Assembly: GCA_003285105.1 (NCBI GenBank)
Contig: CP030158.1
Coordinates: 3,578,664 to 3,642,663, forward strand
Source: Roseithermus sacchariphilus
Lineage (GTDB): Bacteria; Bacteroidota; Rhodothermia; Rhodothermales; MEBIC09517
Length of the DNA stretch: 64,000 nt
Direction: 5' to 3'
The notes under the pieces were generated by a model, which saw only the letters and a program-made list of their open reading frames with translations, was not told the DNA's origin and made no database searches. Positions 16,071 to 28,535 of this stretch are shown here, in pieces; positions within the stretch are counted from its first letter, which is position 1, and every line of letters starts with the position of its first letter. The position numbers and the translations under genes are program-made.

Positions 16071-17483
16071 ATGCCTGCGTACCTCGCCTTCGACCTGGGT
16101 GCCTCCAGCGGCCGGGCCATCCTCGGCCGGCTCGAAGCCCATCGGATGCACATGGACGAGCTGCACCGCTTCACGACGCCGATCATCGAAGAGGAAGGGC
16201 ATCTGTACTGGGACGTCGACGCCATCTGGCGGCATCTGCAAACAGGGCTGTGCAAGGCGCTGGACGCCGCCCCGGACCTGCGAAGCGTATCGGTCAATTC
16301 CTGGGGTGTCGACTACGTCCCGCTCGACGCCGAAGGTCGCCCCCTGCGCCGCCCGTTCGTCTACCGTGACCCCCGCGTGAAGGGTCGGATGGAAGCGGCC
16401 TGGGAGGTCCTGCCGGCGCCGGCCATCTATGCCGCCACGGGCATCCAGTTCATGCCGATCAACACCCTCTACCAGATCCTGGCCGATCAGGAGGAGGAGC
16501 CGGAGCGGTTCGCCGCCACGCGGAACCGGTTGATGATGGCCGACTACTTCAACCACCGGCTCGGTGGCCGGGCCGTGGCGGAAGTCTCGCTGGCGAGCAC
16601 GTCGCAGCTGATGGACGCCCGCACGCAGACGTGGTCCACCGAGGTCCTGAAGGCCTTTGGCATCCCGGTCGACACGTGGCCGCCCATCGTGCCCTCGGGC
16701 ACGCGGATCGGCACCCTGCGCGAACACCCGGCGGTGACGATCATCGCCAGCTGCTCGCACGACACGGCCGACGCGGTGGCCGCCACCCCCGCCGCCGGCA
16801 CCCGCCCGTGGGCCTACCTGAGCTGCGGCACGTGGTCGTTGCTCGGGGTCGAGCGAGCGGAGCCGCTGCTCAGCGAAGCCGCCCGCCGGGCCGGGTTCAC
16901 CAACGAAGCCGGCCTCGACGGCACCATTCGCTTTCTGAAGAACATCACCGGCCTCTGGATGCTGCAGGAGTGCGAGCGCGCCTGGCGGGAACGCGGCGAT
17001 GCGTATACCTACGACGAGCTCATGGCCGAGGCCGAGGCGGCCCCGCCTACCGGCGGCCCCCTCGACCTCACCGACCCCCGCTTCGCGGCGCGGGGGGACA
17101 TGCAGGCCCGCATCGTGGCCTACGGCCGCGAACACGGGATCCCGATCCCGGAGGAACGCGGCCCGCTCGTGCGCACCATCCTGGAGAGCCTGGCCCGCGC
17201 GCACCGAGATACCCTGCGTGACCTGGAGGCCGTGCTGGGAACGTCCATCGACGTGCTGCACATCGTCGGCGGCGGAGCCCGTAACCGCCTGCTGTGCCAG
17301 TGGACGGCCGACGCCTGCGGCTGTGAGGTCGTGGCCGGGCCGGCCGAGGCTACGGCCCTCGGCAACCTGCTCATCCAGGCCCGCACCATGGGCGATCTCG
17401 ACGACGGGGTCTCCATCCGTGACGTCGTCCGCCACAGCACCGACCTCGTCACCTATCGGCCCTCCCCCCGCGCCGCCCCCTGA
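16071..17483 (+). CDS. rhaB: Rhamnulokinase
   Basis: 470 residues, full length for the FGGY kinase family. Visible motifs: FDLGASSGRAILGRL (phosphate-1 loop, residues 5-19), VNSWGVDYVPLD (substrate-contacting region typical of rhamnulokinase), ASCSHDTADAVAATP, AYLSCGTWSLLGVE and the adenosine loop HIVGGGARNRLLCQWTADA. The enzyme phosphorylates L-rhamnulose (and often L-fuculose) at O-1 using ATP in the cytoplasm. It lies between a class II aldolase and the fused RhaEW-type aldolase/dehydrogenase, an arrangement that strongly supports a rhamnose pathway role. Confidence 0.93.
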   Translation: MPAYLAFDLGASSGRAILGRLEAHRMHMDELHRFTTPIIEEEGHLYWDVDAIWRHLQTGLCKALDAAPDLRSVSVNSWGVDYVPLDAEGRPLRRPFVYRDPRVKGRMEAAWEVLPAPAIYAATGIQFMPINTLYQILADQEEEPERFAATRNRLMMADYFNHRLGGRAVAEVSLASTSQLMDARTQTWSTEVLKAFGIPVDTWPPIVPSGTRIGTLREHPAVTIIASCSHDTADAVAATPAAGTRPWAYLSCGTWSLLGVERAEPLLSEAARRAGFTNEAGLDGTIRFLKNITGLWMLQECERAWRERGDAYTYDELMAEAEAAPPTGGPLDLTDPRFAARGDMQARIVAYGREHGIPIPEERGPLVRTILESLARAHRDTLRDLEAVLGTSIDVLHIVGGGARNRLLCQWTADACGCEVVAGPAEATALGNLLIQARTMGDLDDGVSIRDVVRHSTDLVTYRPSPRAAP

Positions 17484-17541
17484 TACGGCCACGCGACCTG
17501 CCCCCGTCAACGCCTTCACCCGACCAACTCGACACGCTCCC

Positions 17542-19737
17542 ATGCAGACTCCGGCACCGCCTTTCCGCCACGTTCAAGACCTCTGGGATGACGCCGAGGC
17601 CGACCGCCTCGACCCCCTCGGCCGCCTCGTCTACCGCTCCAACCTGCTCGGGCAGGACTGGCGCATCACCAATACCGGCGGCGGGAACACCTCGTCCAAA
17701 CTCACCGAGACCGACCCGCTGACGGGCCACCCCGTGGAGGTCCTGTGGGTCAAGGGCTCCGGCGGCGACCTGCGGACGGCCACGAAACCCAACTTTGCCT
17801 CTCTCTACCAGGACAAGCTCCTCGCGCTGCAGGACGTCTATGCCCGGTTCGAGGCACGCGGCCCCAAAACGCCGGCCGAGGATGCGATGGTCGGCATGTA
17901 CCCGCACTGCACCTTCAACCTGAACCCGCGCGCGCCCTCCATCGACACGCCGCTGCACAGCTTCGTCCCCTACAAGCACGTCGACCACACGCATCCCGTG
18001 GCGTGCATCGCCCTTGCCACGGCGGCCGACGGCGAGGCGCTCACGCGGGAGATCTATGGCGACGAGGTGATCTGGACGCCCTGGCAGCGCCCCGGCTTCG
18101 AGCTCGGGCTGACGCTCCAGCGCATCTGCCGCGAACACCCCGAGGCGAAGGGGGTCATCCTCGGCGGTCACGGCCTCATCAACTGGGCCGACGACGACAA
18201 GGCCTGCTACTACCTCACGCTCCGCCTGATCGAACAGGCCGCCGCCTACATCGCCGCCCACGACCGGGGGGAGGCCACCTTCGGCGGAGCCAGATACCGG
18301 AGCCTGCCGGACGACGAGCGCGACGCCCTCCTCTTTGGCCTCCTCCCCTGGCTCCGCGGCCGCGTCAGCCAGGAACGCCGCTTCATCGGAACCGTGCACG
18401 CCGACGAGGCCGTGCTGCGCTTCGTCAACAGCCAGGACGCCGAACGCCTCGCCGAACTCGGCACCTCCTGCCCGGACCACTTCCTGCGGACGAAGATCAA
18501 ACCGCTCTACGTGGACTGGGACCCGCAGCAGGGCGACCTCGACACGCTGAAGGCGGCCCTGGACGAGGGGCTGTCCCGCTACCGGGCCGACTATGAGGCG
18601 TACTACCAGACCTGCCGCTCGGCCGACTCCCCGCCGATGCGCGATCCCAACCCGACCGTGGTGCTCATCCCGGGTCTGGGCCTGATCGCATGGGGAAAGA
18701 CGAAAAGCGAGAGCCGCGTGACGGCCGAGTTCTACAAGGCCGCCATCGCCGTCATGGAAGGCGCCGAGGCCGTCAGCACCTACACCGCCCTGCCTCGCCA
18801 GGAAGCCTACGACATCGAATACTGGGCGCTGGAGGAAGCCAAGCTCCGCCGGATGCCACCCGAGCAGGAGCTGTCCCGTCGCATCGTCGCCATCGCCGGG
18901 GCCGGCAGCGGCATCGGCCGCGAGCTGGCCGAACGGCTGATCCGCGAGAAAGCCACCGTCGTCTGCCTCGACCTAGACGCAGCCGCCGCACAGGAAACCG
19001 CACAGGCCATCCTCGACCGCATCGGCCTCGGCATCGGCGTGGCCGGCACCGGCATCTCCAGCTGCGGCGACGTCATCGGCCTCGGCTGTGACCTGACCGA
19101 CCGCCACTCGATCCGCGCGGCGCTGCAGCAGGCCGTCCTGGCCTACGGCGGCCTCGACGACCTGGCGGTGACGGCCGGCATCTACGTCGCCCCGGACACC
19201 GAGGGCCGCACCTCGGATGCCGGCTGGACGAAGAGCTTCGCCGTGAACACGCTGGCGCACTACTTCTTCGTCGACGAGGCCATGCCCATCCTGCGCGACC
19301 AGGACCTCGACGGCGCCGTGGTGCTCACCACGAGCGTCAACGCCGTCGTGGCCAAGCGCGGCAGCCTGGCCTATGACACCAGCAAGGCGGCGACGAACCA
19401 CCTCGTCCGTGAGCTCGCCATCGAGCTGGCGCCGAACGTCCGCGTCAACGGCCTCGCCCCGGCCACGGTCGTGCAGGGCAGCAGCATGTTTCCCCGCGAG
19501 CGCGTCATCGCTTCGCTGGCGAAGTACGATCTGCCCTATCGCGAGGACGAGGACACCGACACGCTGCGTGAGCGCCTGGCGCATTTCTACGCCCGCCGCA
19601 CCCTCACCCGCCGGCCCATCACCCCGGCCGACCAGGCCGAGGCCCTCTTCCTCTTGCTCAGCCCCCGGCGCCTCCCGAAGACCACCGGCCAGATCCTCAC
19701 GGTCGACGGCGGACTCGTGGAAGCGTTCCTGCGCTGA
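17542..19737 (+). CDS. rhaEW: Bifunctional rhamnulose-1-phosphate aldolase/L-lactaldehyde dehydrogenase (RhaEW type)
   Basis: 731 residues. The N-terminal half is a class II aldolase domain: TNTGGGNTSSKL (phosphate loop), WVKGSGGDL, the zinc site KHVDHTHP and GGHGLINW. The C-terminal part (from about residue 445) is a short-chain dehydrogenase: IAGAGSGIGRELAERL binds NAD, and LAYDTSKAATNHLV carries the YxxxK catalytic pair. This fusion, known as RhaEW in many bacteria, splits L-rhamnulose-1-phosphate to DHAP and L-lactaldehyde and oxidises the aldehyde to L-lactate. The ATG at 17542 is 58 bp after rhaB; the longer frame from 16999 overlaps rhaB and is rejected. Confidence 0.93.
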   Translation: MQTPAPPFRHVQDLWDDAEADRLDPLGRLVYRSNLLGQDWRITNTGGGNTSSKLTETDPLTGHPVEVLWVKGSGGDLRTATKPNFASLYQDKLLALQDVYARFEARGPKTPAEDAMVGMYPHCTFNLNPRAPSIDTPLHSFVPYKHVDHTHPVACIALATAADGEALTREIYGDEVIWTPWQRPGFELGLTLQRICREHPEAKGVILGGHGLINWADDDKACYYLTLRLIEQAAAYIAAHDRGEATFGGARYRSLPDDERDALLFGLLPWLRGRVSQERRFIGTVHADEAVLRFVNSQDAERLAELGTSCPDHFLRTKIKPLYVDWDPQQGDLDTLKAALDEGLSRYRADYEAYYQTCRSADSPPMRDPNPTVVLIPGLGLIAWGKTKSESRVTAEFYKAAIAVMEGAEAVSTYTALPRQEAYDIEYWALEEAKLRRMPPEQELSRRIVAIAGAGSGIGRELAERLIREKATVVCLDLDAAAAQETAQAILDRIGLGIGVAGTGISSCGDVIGLGCDLTDRHSIRAALQQAVLAYGGLDDLAVTAGIYVAPDTEGRTSDAGWTKSFAVNTLAHYFFVDEAMPILRDQDLDGAVVLTTSVNAVVAKRGSLAYDTSKAATNHLVRELAIELAPNVRVNGLAPATVVQGSSMFPRERVIASLAKYDLPYREDEDTDTLRERLAHFYARRTLTRRPITPADQAEALFLLLSPRRLPKTTGQILTVDGGLVEAFLR

Positions 19738-21071: not shown

Positions 21072-21244
21072 GATCGGCGGCGTGGGACCTCTGCGGGCTC
21101 TGGTGTATCGGCTCGCCTTCGGCGGGGTTCCGCCCGACCGGAGCCCTTTTTCCGGCGACTGCATACTTTTCCGCGGTGGCGCGTATCCAGCGAACACGGC
21201 CCCCGCGCCCGTCATCCACGTCCTCCCCCGCGTCCTGCGTGCCC

Positions 21245-22444
21245 ATGCCGACTTCCTCCCAGGCTCGTGACCCCGCCGGCTCCTCCGCCTCCTCCAGCCG
21301 CCTCGGCCAGACGGTGCTCGAAGACCTCCACCGCACCGATCTGACGCACACCTTCCAGCAGGACCTGAAGGACGTCTACCAGTTTTACCTGGATCCTCAG
21401 ACCCGGCAGGAACTGGCGTCGATGAGCCAGACCAAACGCTGGTTTTACCTGACCTTCTGGCTCCTGAAGAGCAGTATCCTGCGGCTCTCCCCGTCGCGGC
21501 GGCTGTTGCTGCTGGGCAGCCTCATCTTCTTCGCCTACGGCCTCGGCGGCTCCACCCCCTTCCTCGTCGCCGGGTTCGCCGTGCTCCTCCTGGTGTTGAT
21601 CCTGGAGTTGAAAGACAAGCTGATGGCCCAGGACGAGTTGGACACGGGCCGGGCCGTCCAGGCGGCCCTGCTGCCCCGGGATCATCCGTACGTGCCCGGC
21701 TGGGACGTGTGGCTCTATACGCGCCCCGCCAACGACGTCGGCGGCGATCTCGTGGACTACCTCCCGCTGGAGGACGGACGGCTCGGGCTGGCGCTGGGGG
21801 ACGTCGCCGGGAAAGGGCTGGGCGCCGCGCTGCTGATGGCCAAGCTCCAGTCTACCCTCCGCGCCATCGCGCCCGGGTACGCGAACCTCGCCGACCTGGG
21901 CGTGGCGACGAACCGCATCTTCCGGCGGGACGGCCTCCCCAACCGCTTCATCTCGCTGGTCTACCTCGTGCTGGAACCGGACTCCGGCCACGTACGACTC
22001 CTCAACGCGGGTCACCTCCCGCCGGTGCTCCTGCGCAACCGGTCGATCCAGGAACTCCCCAAAGGCGGCCCGGCCCTCGGGCTGATGGACGGTGCTGTCT
22101 TTACGGAACAGGAAATCACCCTCGCCCCCGACGACTACCTCATCGTCTTCTCCGACGGGCTGACCGAGGCCCGCAACGAGGCGGGAACCTTCTTCGGGTA
22201 CGACCGGCTGCGCGGGCTGCTGCCTCGCCTCCAGGGGCTCTCTGCGCCGGAGGCCGGGCACCGCATACTGGACCACATCGCGCGGTTCATGGACGGCGCC
22301 CGCGCCAGCGACGACCTCTCGCTGATCGTCCTGCGCCGCCGGTCCGCCGCCACCCCGTCGGGCGAGGCCGATGCCCCGGCGGCACGCACCCGGACGGCCC
22401 CGGCAGGGCGGGCAACGACGACGCCGGCGGATGAAACCGCCTGA
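21245..22444 (+). CDS. Membrane-anchored SpoIIE/RsbU-type PP2C serine phosphatase
   Basis: 399 residues. The N-terminal region (about 1-100) has a soluble helix followed by two membrane helices (RLLLLGSLIFFAYGLGG and PFLVAGFAVLLLVLILEL). The rest is a SpoIIE-type PP2C phosphatase: VQAALLP near 140, RPANDVGGDLVDYL, LALGDVAGKGLGAALLMA, LLNAGHLPPVLL, IVFSDGLTEARNEAG and SDDLSLIVLRR. The aspartates in those motifs bind the Mn2+/Mg2+ pair. Such enzymes dephosphorylate STAS anti-anti-sigma factors in partner-switching pathways. No STAS or RsbW-like gene is in the window. The last 35 residues are Ala/Thr/Arg-rich and look disordered. Confidence 0.9.
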   Translation: MPTSSQARDPAGSSASSSRLGQTVLEDLHRTDLTHTFQQDLKDVYQFYLDPQTRQELASMSQTKRWFYLTFWLLKSSILRLSPSRRLLLLGSLIFFAYGLGGSTPFLVAGFAVLLLVLILELKDKLMAQDELDTGRAVQAALLPRDHPYVPGWDVWLYTRPANDVGGDLVDYLPLEDGRLGLALGDVAGKGLGAALLMAKLQSTLRAIAPGYANLADLGVATNRIFRRDGLPNRFISLVYLVLEPDSGHVRLLNAGHLPPVLLRNRSIQELPKGGPALGLMDGAVFTEQEITLAPDDYLIVFSDGLTEARNEAGTFFGYDRLRGLLPRLQGLSAPEAGHRILDHIARFMDGARASDDLSLIVLRRRSAATPSGEADAPAARTRTAPAGRATTTPADETA

Positions 22445-24499: not shown

Positions 24500-25855
24500 T
24501 CAGGACCCGGACGCGTCGGCCAGCGCGTCCCGGACCACCGCAGGGGCCGCCGGAACACCTCCCTCGGCCGGACGGCCCAGCTGGTTCTCCGTCGCCGCCA
24601 CGATGGTCGCCACGGTGGCATCCCCCGTGACGTTCGTCACCGTCCGCACCATGTCCAGGATGCGGTCGACGCCCAGGATGAGCGCGATGCCGGCACTCGG
24701 CACACCGACCGATTCCAGGATGATGACCAGCATCACGATTCCCGCGCCCGGCACCCCGGCCGTCCCGATGGAGGCCAGCAGCGCCGTGAAGACGATGGTC
24801 AGCTGCGCCGCCAGGTCGAGCCCCAGCCCGAGCGCCTGGGCGATGAACACCGCGGCGACCGCCTGATACAGCGCCGTGCCGTCCATGTTGATCGTGGCGC
24901 CGAGCGGAAGCACGAAGGACGACACCTCCTCGGACACGCCCAGGTTCTTCTCGGCGCACTCCATCGTCACCGGCAGCGTCGCCCCGCTGGAGGACGTCGA
25001 GAAGGCGACGAGCTGGGCCGGGGCGATCCCGGTGAAGAACGTCCGCAGCGGCATCCGCACGAACAGCTTCAGCAGCGACGGATAGACGACGAGCATGTGG
25101 ATGAACAGCCCCAGCAGCACGGCGATGCAGTAGTACCCCAGCGCCGCCAGCAGCTCCAGGATCTCGCCCAGACCGCCCCGGGCGATGGAGGTGATCGTGT
25201 CGGCCATCAGCGCGAACACGCCCACCGGGGCGACGAGCATGATGAGCTCGACCACCCGGATAATGAGCACGTTGAAGCCGTCGAAAAATGCCTGCACGGG
25301 CCGGGCCTTTTCCGGCGGGATCATGAGCAGCCCGATGCCGAACAGGATGGCGACGAAGACGACCTGCAGCATGTTGCCGTTGTCGGCGGCGGCGCTGAAG
25401 AAGTTGTCCGGCACCATGTCCACGATGGGCTGCAACGGACCGCGTTCCCGCGCCGCCTGCGCCGCCTGCGTGCGTGCCGCCACATCCCCCTCGTAGGCCT
25501 GCTGAAGCCGATCCCGCATGTCCGGCGGCACCGTCTTGCCCGGCTGCATGACGTTGACCACCGTCAGCCCGATCGTGAGCGCGAGCAAGGTCGTCCCCAG
25601 GTAGATGGCGATGGTCTTGCCGCCGATCCGGGAGAGCTTGCTCAGGTCGGAGAGCGACGCCACGCCCGTGATCAGCGAGGCGAGGATCAGGGGGACGGCG
25701 ATGAGCTTGAGCAGGTTGATGAAGATGGTACCCCACGGCGCAATCCAGTCCGACGTGAAGCCGCTCCATCCGTTGACGGCCGCCACGATGCCGAAGAGGA
25801 GGCCCAGCACGAGGCCGATGATGATCTGCCAGTGGAGTTTTTTATACCAGGGCAT
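24500..25855 (-). CDS. Dicarboxylate/glutamate:cation symporter (DAACS family)
   Basis: 451 residues, typical for GltP/DctA. The N-terminus KLHWQIIIGLVLGLLFGIVA is the first membrane helix. The two re-entrant hairpins are recognisable: the serine-rich STSSSGATLPVTMECAEKN and the second with GIGTAG-like glycines (IGTAGVPGAGIVMLV). The cation/substrate helix carries GATINMDGTALYQAVAA, the NMDGT motif of the family. Transport of aspartate, glutamate or C4-dicarboxylates with Na+ or H+ is expected; sequence does not settle which. A hydrophilic insertion (about 105-150, KTVPPDMRDRLQQAYEGD) lies in an extracytoplasmic loop, as in several bacterial members. Confidence 0.93.
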   Translation of the reverse strand: MPWYKKLHWQIIIGLVLGLLFGIVAAVNGWSGFTSDWIAPWGTIFINLLKLIAVPLILASLITGVASLSDLSKLSRIGGKTIAIYLGTTLLALTIGLTVVNVMQPGKTVPPDMRDRLQQAYEGDVAARTQAAQAARERGPLQPIVDMVPDNFFSAAADNGNMLQVVFVAILFGIGLLMIPPEKARPVQAFFDGFNVLIIRVVELIMLVAPVGVFALMADTITSIARGGLGEILELLAALGYYCIAVLLGLFIHMLVVYPSLLKLFVRMPLRTFFTGIAPAQLVAFSTSSSGATLPVTMECAEKNLGVSEEVSSFVLPLGATINMDGTALYQAVAAVFIAQALGLGLDLAAQLTIVFTALLASIGTAGVPGAGIVMLVIILESVGVPSAGIALILGVDRILDMVRTVTNVTGDATVATIVAATENQLGRPAEGGVPAAPAVVRDALADASGS

Positions 25856-25925: not shown

Positions 25926-27443
25926 TCAAGAACCGAAAAGCACGGGAGCCGCGCAAGCCAGCGCCAGCACCGCTCCGGCGGCGGTCGCCAGGAGGTTGAC
26001 CCGGTCGTTGGTCATCCAGCGCCGGCCACGCAGGAGGTCGTTCGGACGCCCCTCCGAGACGGCGCGTTCCGTCTCCCGGCCCGTGGCCGCCTCGCGGTAG
26101 CGGGCCTGCACCGTCGCCCCCAGCAGGCTATCGACCAGCGCCCCGCCAAACCCACCGGCCACGACGGCCAGGGCGATCCACACCGGCTCGACCCCGGGCA
26201 CGAGGGGCGCCGGAGCGACGGGCCACGCCGCCGCTGCGATCACCCCCGCCCCCAGCACCGCCCCGGCCGTCCCGGCCGCCGACACCGCGCCGGACGTCCC
26301 GACCGGCACGGGCCGCCCCGTGCGCAGCGAGCGGGGCGTCCCTCCCACCAGCGTCCCGATCTCCGTGGCCCACGTGTCGGCGGTGGCGGCGGCGAAAGCA
26401 CCCAGGAACGCCACATAGCATAACGGCTCCACCGCCCAGGAGGCGGGCAGCACCGCGGCCAGGAGCAGACAGGCCCACCCCACGCCGCCGTTGGCGTAGA
26501 CCTGCCCGGCATCGCGCACGTGCCCCTTCTCGTCCTGCCGGGCCGCCGCGGCCTTCCGCCTCCGGCCGATCCGGGACAGCAGGCTCGACAGCACGAAGAA
26601 CGCGAACGCCGGCACGGCCCACGCCCATCCCCCGAGCCCCACCAGCGAGGCAGCCAGCAGCCCCCCGGCGATGGCGCCCGACGGATCCAGGAACCGCACC
26701 CGCCAGGCCACGACGCCAAAGATGACGCCCCCTCCCAGAGCACCCAGCAACCGGGGCAGCGCCTCGGGCCGCTCCAGCCCCACCACCAGCACCACCACCG
26801 CCGCCAGCACGATGAAGAAGTTGTCCCAGCCGCGCCCGCCGAGCACCTCGACCGGCGTCGTCACGCCGGCCACCAGCAGCGCCAGGCCCAGGCGTTGGGC
26901 CAGCGTCCAGCGGCCGTCCCCGAGCGCCGTCAGCGCCAGGACGGTGACGAGCAGCGCCACGGCGAAGAAGGCCGCGGTGCCCGCCGCCGAGCGGGTCGCC
27001 CCGGCGATCTCGAAGCGAGCGCGCCCGCCCCGGCGCTCCCCGACCGCCGCCGCGGCCGGGTCGGCCAGCGCCAGCACGAGAAAGGCCACCGTCAGCGCCA
27101 CCGTCCGCTCCGGGTCGATGGACCACGTCAGCGCCAGCGCCGGCGGCACCGCCAGCGGGAACGTCACCGTGCCGGGACTCGCACGCCGAGCGCGGTGGAG
27201 GCTCGCCAGCCGTCCCCTGCGCCAGGCCCACGCGTTGAAGCCCACGAACAGCACGGCCAGCAGGTAGACGCCATCGGGCTGTGTGAACAGCATCGGCGAG
27301 GCGGCCACGAACATCCCCACGCCCGCATGTACCAGCCGCCGCGTCGCCGCCGCCGATACCCCCCGGCGATGCAGCCATTCCCCCACCCCAACGAGGCCGC
27401 CGAGCGCCAGCAGCGACAGTCCGAAGGCGACGGCATCGGTCAT
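25926..27443 (-). CDS. Fused CTP-dependent isoprenoid-alcohol kinase-like and DUF92 (VTE6-like) membrane protein
   Basis: 505 residues from ATG at 27443 (a GTG at 27467 is possible). The N-terminal half resembles the dolichol kinase/phytol kinase (VTE5) group: RRLVHAGVGMFVA early, then ADPAAAAVGERRGG and GATRSAAGTAAFF, the CTP-kinase signature region. The C-terminal half (from about 225) is DUF92, the family of plant VTE6 phytyl-phosphate kinase: VRFLDPSGAIAGGLLAASLV, FAAATADTWATEIGTLVGG and FGGALVDSLLGATVQARY. In plants and cyanobacteria these two activities act in sequence, phytol to phytyl-P to phytyl-PP. One chain carrying both would channel salvage of isoprenoid alcohols. Around twelve membrane helices. 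Confidence 0.8.
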   Translation of the reverse strand: MTDAVAFGLSLLALGGLVGVGEWLHRRGVSAAATRRLVHAGVGMFVAASPMLFTQPDGVYLLAVLFVGFNAWAWRRGRLASLHRARRASPGTVTFPLAVPPALALTWSIDPERTVALTVAFLVLALADPAAAAVGERRGGRARFEIAGATRSAAGTAAFFAVALLVTVLALTALGDGRWTLAQRLGLALLVAGVTTPVEVLGGRGWDNFFIVLAAVVVLVVGLERPEALPRLLGALGGGVIFGVVAWRVRFLDPSGAIAGGLLAASLVGLGGWAWAVPAFAFFVLSSLLSRIGRRRKAAAARQDEKGHVRDAGQVYANGGVGWACLLLAAVLPASWAVEPLCYVAFLGAFAAATADTWATEIGTLVGGTPRSLRTGRPVPVGTSGAVSAAGTAGAVLGAGVIAAAAWPVAPAPLVPGVEPVWIALAVVAGGFGGALVDSLLGATVQARYREAATGRETERAVSEGRPNDLLRGRRWMTNDRVNLLATAAGAVLALACAAPVLFGS

Positions 27444-27482: not shown

Positions 27483-28535
27483 TCAGAAGGAAAGACGGAG
27501 CGACGCCGTGGTCTGCGGCGCCCCGAACGCGTCGTGCCCGACCGTCAGCGAAGACGACAGGGACGAGGCCAGGCGATTGTTGTGCAGACGCGCCGAGATC
27601 GCCGCGTCGAAGGCTGCCAGCACGTGATTGACGACGAAGACCGCCGAGAGGCGCGAGGCGCGGCGCAGGAGGTCATTGGCGCGGGCATGGTCGTCCGCAT
27701 ACCGGTAGAAGCGATCCGAAACGTGGATCTTGGCGCCCGACGCATCGACGGCCTCCGGGTCGATGGCGGCGGTGAACGTGCCGTCTTCGGTACGCCAGAC
27801 GGGATAATCGTCCCACCCGGGGGCATACTGGAAATACTTCCCGATCAGCTCGTAGTACTGCTGCTCGCCGAAGAACGGGAGCTGATGCGAGAACGTGGCG
27901 CCGGTGGCCGTGAAGATCACGCCGTTGTCGGCCTCCAGGGCACGGATCTGCTCGAAGAGCTGCCGCACGGCCGCCCGCTCGGCGCTCGTCCAGCCGTCGG
28001 GGTTCGAGAAGTCGATGCCGCCGGGGATCGAGACGGGCGGGGTGTCGATGATGCGGTTGTGCTCCTGCCGGAGGTAGTCGCTGTAGTCGTTGAGCCACCG
28101 GGCATAGCGGGCCGGGCTCCAGTGGGCATGGGCGAAAGCCCAGTAGTCGTCCCGCTGCGCCAGCCCCTGCTCCCGCCAGACCACGTAGCCCGTCCACAGC
28201 GCCGCCTCGACCGCCAGGCCGACGGCGGCCTTGACCCATTGCCGGTTGTAGGCCTGCCCCAGCCCCGGCACGGCGGCCGACAGCCCGAAGGCCAGCGCCA
28301 CGTGGCGAGGCCGGCCGGGCGCCACCGCCGGCACCCCGCCGGAACGCCCCGCCACCGTGCGGAGGCCGCCGTGAAGCAGCGTCGCCCGGAGGCTGGCCGC
28401 GGTGTGCGGAGGCGCCGTGCTGTCGGCCGCGGCCGCCCACCCCACACGCGGCCCTATCGCCCCCAGCAGAAACATACCGGCCAGGGCGAGGACCGTCCAC
28501 AGGGTCTTCCAGCGGGGGCGCACGGCGTCATTCAT
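27483..28535 (-). CDS. DUF5683-type membrane-associated protein
   Basis: 350 residues from ATG at 28535; another ATG at 28553 would add six residues. An N-terminal hydrophobic segment (LWTVLALAGMFLLGAIG) looks like a signal or anchor. The core LAFGLSAAVPGLGQAYNRQW followed by KAAVGLAVEAALWTGYVVW is the PGLGQ-YN-WWK-like motif of DUF5683, common in Bacteroidota envelope proteins. A middle region rich in Tyr/Trp and charged residues (YWAFAHAHWSPARYARWLND) follows, and the C-terminus is beta-rich, ending TTASLRLSF like an outer-membrane strand. Function unknown. It is 32 bp after the TlpA gene. Confidence 0.75.
   Translation of the reverse strand: MNDAVRPRWKTLWTVLALAGMFLLGAIGPRVGWAAAADSTAPPHTAASLRATLLHGGLRTVAGRSGGVPAVAPGRPRHVALAFGLSAAVPGLGQAYNRQWVKAAVGLAVEAALWTGYVVWREQGLAQRDDYWAFAHAHWSPARYARWLNDYSDYLRQEHNRIIDTPPVSIPGGIDFSNPDGWTSAERAAVRQLFEQIRALEADNGVIFTATGATFSHQLPFFGEQQYYELIGKYFQYAPGWDDYPVWRTEDGTFTAAIDPEAVDASGAKIHVSDRFYRYADDHARANDLLRRASRLSAVFVVNHVLAAFDAAISARLHNNRLASSLSSSLTVGHDAFGAPQTTASLRLSF

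Follow-up and report, generated by a model that had tools for sequence, protein, structure and literature searches.

A 64,000-nucleotide stretch of the Roseithermus sacchariphilus genome (GenBank contig CP030158.1, positions 3,578,664 to 3,642,663; hereafter the window) carries a gene that joins a VTE5/dolichol-kinase-like half to a DUF92 half in one 505-aa polypeptide. With about even confidence, we read its product as an integral membrane enzyme of two consecutive CTP-dependent phosphorylations, which would turn a prenol first into prenyl phosphate and then into prenyl diphosphate and so salvage farnesol, geranylgeraniol or a longer prenol. The gene, recognized by its ORF, a Pfam match and an AlphaFold2 model, occupies 25926..27443 on the minus strand, with an ATG start at 27443 and the stop codon at 25926-25928; an alternative GTG start 24 bases upstream of the ATG would give a 513-aa protein. 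Alignment, profiles and the model delimit an N half (residues 1-234; 26742..27443, minus strand) with eight predicted helices and a CTP_transf_1/VTE5-like character, and the DUF92/VTE6-like C half (residues 235-505; 25929..26741, minus strand) is defined by the model and by a Pfam match over residues 240-491 (25971-26726). A first-pass annotation had called the ORF and proposed a VTE5-like N half followed by a DUF92 C half; the ORF was confirmed, and the domain assignments are supported by PF01940 and by N-half profiles of relatives. In both halves, motifs are nearly invariant across 71 aligned fusions.

This alignment was obtained from 76 loci read as proteins after exclusion of near duplicates, of partial loci and of L025, which has one stop; L003, L005 and L076 contained a stop and were not aligned, giving 74 rows including the window protein, and removal of the mis-framed L016, L017 and L020 left the 71 rows on which all motif counts are based. 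Three smaller sets were also used, A1 (45 of the 47 loci passing the length filter), A2 (44 loci) and A3 (45 loci), to each of which the window protein was added. The C half matched PF01940 (DUF92) at residues 240-491 with 222.1 bits (cut-off 27.5; E 9.7e-66). The NCBIfam model TIGR00297, which all 46 A1 members matched at E up to 0.01, scored 106.2 bits against the window protein, under its cut-off of 205.85. In the aligned rows, DUF92 motif 1 corresponds to A355-D356-T-W-A-T-E361-I-G363 (26355..26381), motif 2 to G382-T-S384-G385 (26289..26300), motif 3 to D438-S-L-L-G442-A-T-V-Q446 (26106..26132) and the C-terminal motif to N479-D-R-V-N483 (25995..26009), all on the minus strand. The family motifs ADT..(S/T)E.G, G(T/S).G and DS.LGA are all intact in the window protein; D356, T357, E361, G382, S384, G385, D438 and G442 were found in 71 of 71 rows, and S439 in 68.

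The window protein's own N half had no Pfam match, even when E values up to 1 were allowed. Once relatives were included, PF01148 (CTP_transf_1) matched 12 of 45 N halves (best E 2.9e-5), and an N-half profile scored 30.3 against CdsA, whereas 37 unrelated families reached no more than 20.4 and reversed CdsA scored 15.9. The register of this profile alignment was the expected one, with D128 on D-T-A-A-Y of CdsA and K-S-x-x-G on K-K-T-W-E-G. The 45-row N-half alignment displayed the pattern R-K-x-x-H, D-x-x-A-x-x-x-G, K-S-x-x-G-S, E and G-x-D-N. Judged by spacing, R35-R36-L-V-H39 (27327..27341, minus strand, as for the following motifs) would be the counterpart of the R-K-x-x-H charged clamp, which is described together with a hinge glutamate for PfPolK, a Plasmodium relative of VTE5 and FOLK (PMC10849223). 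R35 and H39 occurred in 69 of 71 fusion rows, that is, in all rows with letters, the other two being gaps. D128-P-A-A131-A-A-V-G135 (27039..27062) holds the putative metal- or nucleotide-binding aspartate of the N half, as suggested by conservation and by the CdsA profile alignment, and the aligned rows identify R151-S-A-A-G155-T156 (26976..26993) as the K-S-x-x-G-S counterpart. E199 (26847-26849) precedes G205-W-D207-N208 (26820..26831) and, from its spacing, may be the counterpart of the PfPolK hinge glutamate. D128, A131, G155, E199, G205, D207 and N208 were each present in 71 of 71 rows. At position 36, K was found in 45 and R in 22 of the 71 rows, and at position 151, K in 59 and R in 5; the window protein has R at both of these positions, where K is commonest, which counts against the kinase reading. 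As a whole, the N half appears to carry the residues of the VTE5/dolichol-kinase group, a membership that emerges only when profiles built from relatives are used.

The AlphaFold2 model of the whole chain (mean pLDDT 94.0, pTM 0.92) contains eight long helices per half, those of the N half lying within residues 3-224, and the N half modeled alone reached a pLDDT of 95.1. When this N-half model was compared with 999 chains, CdsA entries ranked first and second (Z 8.6, 165 aligned residues, rmsd 4.8 Å; Z 8.3, 162 aligned, 4.6 Å), ahead of unrelated chains with Z ≤7.2, at values that are under the tool's safe level for helical bundles and may reflect a common helix arrangement. The archaeal membrane-lipid enzyme 5guf was at rank 27 (Z 5.3). 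Foldseek gave no match at E up to 0.001 with the full or the N-half model, and sequence searches of solved structures with either half returned nothing credible. The structure list for the full model was headed by membrane pyrophosphatases (Z up to 8.3), which we discounted because they did not appear in the list for the N half alone. CdsA was rejected as the identity of the window protein, which is devoid of the GHGG..DR.D signature; the genome has one DUF92 match and one CTP_transf_1 match, the latter an ordinary CdsA encoded elsewhere.

A shared CdsA fold is less evident for the C half: the CdsA-fold entry 4q2e_A aligned with the full model at Z 5.6 (142 aligned, rmsd 3.5), but the C-half profile scored 22.5 against CdsA, not above the reversed control of 24.9, and PF01148 was found in none of 46 C halves among the 25 families listed. 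Makarova et al. (PMC5898192), comparing PF01148 with a DUF92 protein from archaea, report an HHpred value of 97.57%. When the N and C halves were aligned to each other, D128 fell on D356, with a score of 29.7 (37 unrelated families, ≤20.4; reversed control, 26.6). Since this score is above those of the unrelated families but near the reversed control, a shared origin of the two halves is likely, although not proven; both the CTP_transf_1-like and the DUF92 domain are probably members of a single superfamily.

In the window, the fusion gene lies in a minus-strand run encoding a PD40 propeller/peptidase MA protein, a thioredoxin-like protein, a DUF5683 protein (the upstream neighbor, 27483..28400, start approximate, identified by a family scan of the neighbors), the fusion, an SDF sodium:dicarboxylate symporter (24500..25855) and a TPR protein. 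The symporter gene adjoins the fusion in other Rhodothermales loci too, where the window gene order is partly conserved. None of the nine window neighbors scanned was an isoprenoid gene, which counts against the prenol-kinase reading. Elsewhere in the window, an MlaE permease gene (PF02405; 20319-21215, minus strand) is situated near a SpoIIE phosphatase gene (21176-22444, plus strand), and a 912-residue ORF (16999-19737, plus strand) appears by eye to join an aldolase-like part to a C-terminal short-chain dehydrogenase-like part. The first-pass annotation had placed the fusion in an apparently non-photosynthetic envelope cluster and had asked which alcohol is salvaged (environmental phytol, farnesol or geranylgeraniol). 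The envelope setting was borne out by the envelope-type genes surrounding the fusion in the window, and the view of the host is supported by the result that the chlorophyll-synthesis marker BchL exceeded its family cut-off in 0 of 99 genomes, the host's own included (control genomes, 1 of 14). A restriction of the fusion to such a cluster was not supported, as fusions occur in several phyla, phototrophic or not, and one has been published from Methanosarcina.

In an order-level search, 26 of 99 genomes, including that of the host, had a match spanning the two halves, with 42-53% identity in the 25 genomes other than its own, and 47 of 99 had any match. The 26 two-half matches, together with the mean pLDDT of 94, indicate that the fusion is not due to chance. 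A search of named genome contigs found relatives encoded in 563 stretches, of which the best 80 were retained; by title or lineage, these 80 come from Rhodothermota, Chlorobiota, Calditrichota, Ignavibacteriota, Fidelibacterota, KSB1, Myxococcota and heliobacteria. The fusion occurs in Rhodothermales, Chlorobiales, Calditrichota, Ignavibacteriota, Neomarinimicrobiota, KSB1 and heliobacteria. DUF92 was found in 177 of 296 genomes of a phylum-level draw, where the reading frame had about 500 residues when fused and 230-290 when unfused. A corresponding A2 tally of 210 of 296 genomes was rejected as a count of N-type kinases, because some of its best hits were weak (~1e-4 to 1e-12) and may be CdsA. 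Fused and unfused forms interleave in a quick tree of C halves, with eight state changes, at least three of which are forced by well supported branches, and the unfused protein of an order-mate (L203) is placed beside the window protein; the simplest reading of these sequences would be an early fusion followed by losses of the N half. No N-type gene was detected within ~3 kb of unfused DUF92 genes at 20 loci. Fusion-bearing genomes can encode in addition a separate, stand-alone VTE5-like protein of ~230 residues (L156:4651-5343 and L157:4555-5238), which matched the N-half profile with an hhalign E of 7.7e-27.

Some relatives retain an intact N half next to a degenerate DUF92 half with its motifs lost. 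Such genes were observed in a conserved run (L147:1374-9847, L149:1658-9998, L144:4606-9949, and also L145, L146, L151 and L158) of genes for a UbiA prenyltransferase (Pfam-scanned in L147 only), a PPDK_N/PEP-utilizer protein nearest to PEP synthase and also matching RedH/PigC ligase models, a DUF3419 protein, the kinase-like relative itself, a GNAT or unmatched protein and an AMP-binding ligase. This run looks like an uncharacterized isoprenoid or lipid biosynthesis cluster.

We infer from these data a kinase activity for each half, the donor, the order of the steps, channeling and the substrate. The N half would phosphorylate an isoprenoid alcohol at its hydroxyl group, and CTP is the likely donor because characterized relatives prefer it, as stated in a 2022 review (PMC9782597). 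The C half would add the second phosphate to form the prenyl diphosphate, and the fusion would allow the monophosphate to pass between the halves without release. Probable substrates are farnesol, geranylgeraniol and longer prenols, derived from the cell's own isoprenoid turnover or from the surroundings, and the product would re-enter prenyl-diphosphate metabolism, for which carotenoid/squalene-type enzymes appear to be present (SQS_PSY matches at two places in the host genome). Unsaturated prenols seem likelier substrates than phytol, since the host gives no sign of chlorophyll synthesis.

Several observations do not fit simple salvage: many genomes retain a single half, the 20 unfused DUF92 loci have no N-type gene nearby, some relatives keep an intact N half beside a degenerate DUF92 half, and tolQ directly follows the fusion gene in Chlorobiaceae. 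The neighborhood table covered 79 of 80 loci (L046 gave no fusion ORF), 3 of which had no downstream ORF, and in it the window's own fusion ORF was masked by a longer antisense ORF. At 25 of these 79 loci, all from Chlorobiaceae (L053, L055, L058-L060 and 20 others), tolQ starts within 40 bases of the end of the fusion gene, overlapping it in two, and is followed in representatives by genes for ExbD, TonB_2, PD40, OmpA and TPR proteins (tolR-, tolA-, tolB- and pal-like); judged from this gene order, the chlorobial fusion gene heads a Tol-Pal operon. At four Ignavibacteria-type loci, tolQ lies ~6 kb downstream of the fusion. One could thus suppose that the protein is an envelope lipid-alcohol kinase that phosphorylates a long, undecaprenol-type polyprenol or diacylglycerol, recycling envelope lipids in place of a missing DgkA/UdpK-type kinase. 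The host fits this supposition in that a family search found no DgkA (DAGK_prokar) in its genome, as in 236 of the 296 phylum-draw genomes, its own included, and only 2 of the 60 DgkA bearers (G157 and G235) had a fused-length DUF92 frame among the matches listed. However, order-mates in which no fusion was detected likewise lack DgkA (e.g., G002, G016 and G027), so that the pattern follows lineage, and the data did not establish a connection of DgkA loss with the fusion that is independent of lineage. Direct adjacency to tolQ is moreover restricted to one family, and a second phosphorylation would be hard to rationalize for diacylglycerol. We consider this kind of envelope kinase unlikely. 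A search of the literature on Tol-Pal, Chlorobi and dolichol kinase yielded nothing judged relevant. A broader proposal, in which the fusion is an old core envelope enzyme in the diderms of this group, would have it remake polyprenyl diphosphates from the polyprenols of envelope synthesis rather than scavenge phytol, work with Tol-Pal in Chlorobiaceae, and supply the missing two-step prenol phosphorylation genes in non-photosynthesizers; we advance it as distinctly speculative and improbable.

Doubt may also attach to the substrate and to the chemistry of the C half. Salvage of phytol itself, taken up from the decaying chlorophyll of neighbors and converted to phytyl diphosphate, would agree with the function of the family in plants and cyanobacteria, as outlined in the 2022 review (PMC9782597), and with the finding that some chlorophototrophs, among them Chlorobium and heliobacteria, have the fused form, but, going by record titles, the family is common in lineages where chlorophototrophy is not known, and the best geranylgeranyl-reductase match of the host genome was below cut-off. 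With no BchL over cut-off in the host, phytol from its own chlorophyll is unlikely, and we regard phytol salvage in general as rather improbable. It seems more improbable still that the C half is not a kinase but makes a different product (e.g., a CDP-activated prenol) as a nucleotidyl or phosphate transferase, or serves the N half as a partner in binding or regulation. Both halves are kin to the cytidylyltransferase family by the published HHpred comparison (PMC5898192), the N half in our analysis too, and this idea would accommodate the relatives that keep the N half beside a degenerate C half and the unfused DUF92 genes without an adjacent N-type gene. Against it, the 2022 review (PMC9782597) reports phytyl-phosphate kinase as the function of VTE6, the Arabidopsis member of the DUF92 family, and the window protein has all DUF92 motifs intact.

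The two-step prenol kinase remains our preferred reading, and it bears on a process for which few genes are at hand. The available text of the 2022 review calls the prenol salvage pathway "missing" and names kinases only from photosynthetic organisms (PMC9782597), and that of a 2024 paper (PMC10849223) presents the Plasmodium enzyme as the first FOH/GGOH kinase outside photosynthetic organisms. The 2022 review also states that E. coli is devoid of such kinase activities. A 2011 study (PMC3223725) placed COG1836 in phytol-phosphate metabolism. The literature searched, which did not include most subscription papers, contained no description of the bacterial fusion. Being widespread in this bacterial branch and already described in archaea, the fusion is useful but unsurprising. 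A single bacterial chain that is expected to perform both steps would be easy to test, and relatives that are unfused or half-degenerate offer natural controls for the role of each half.

Among known systems, VTE5, FOLK and PfPolK are single-domain proteins and VTE6 is unfused. Compared by motif description with VTE5/FOLK of plants and Synechocystis and with PfPolK, the window protein has a putative clamp counterpart, in which R replaces K, eight helices and a conserved glutamate. All motifs are present in its C half, a complete DUF92 domain likened to VTE6 itself through the family (VTE6/COG1836/TIGR00297/PF01940), although the protein is under the TIGR00297 cut-off. The N half appears, by profile and fold rank, to fall in the same superfamily as the CDP-diacylglycerol synthase CdsA, whose GHGG...DR.D signature the window protein does not share. 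A further close likeness in published descriptions is to Mbar_A3310 of Methanosarcina barkeri, a SEC59-like/DUF92 fusion (Makarova et al. 2015, PMC5898192) with the same order, a dolichol-kinase-like N domain followed by DUF92 (arCOG02245/COG1836), and, as described there, with paired aspartates conserved in both domains; it differs in being archaeal and in the uppS context reported there for the archaeal family.
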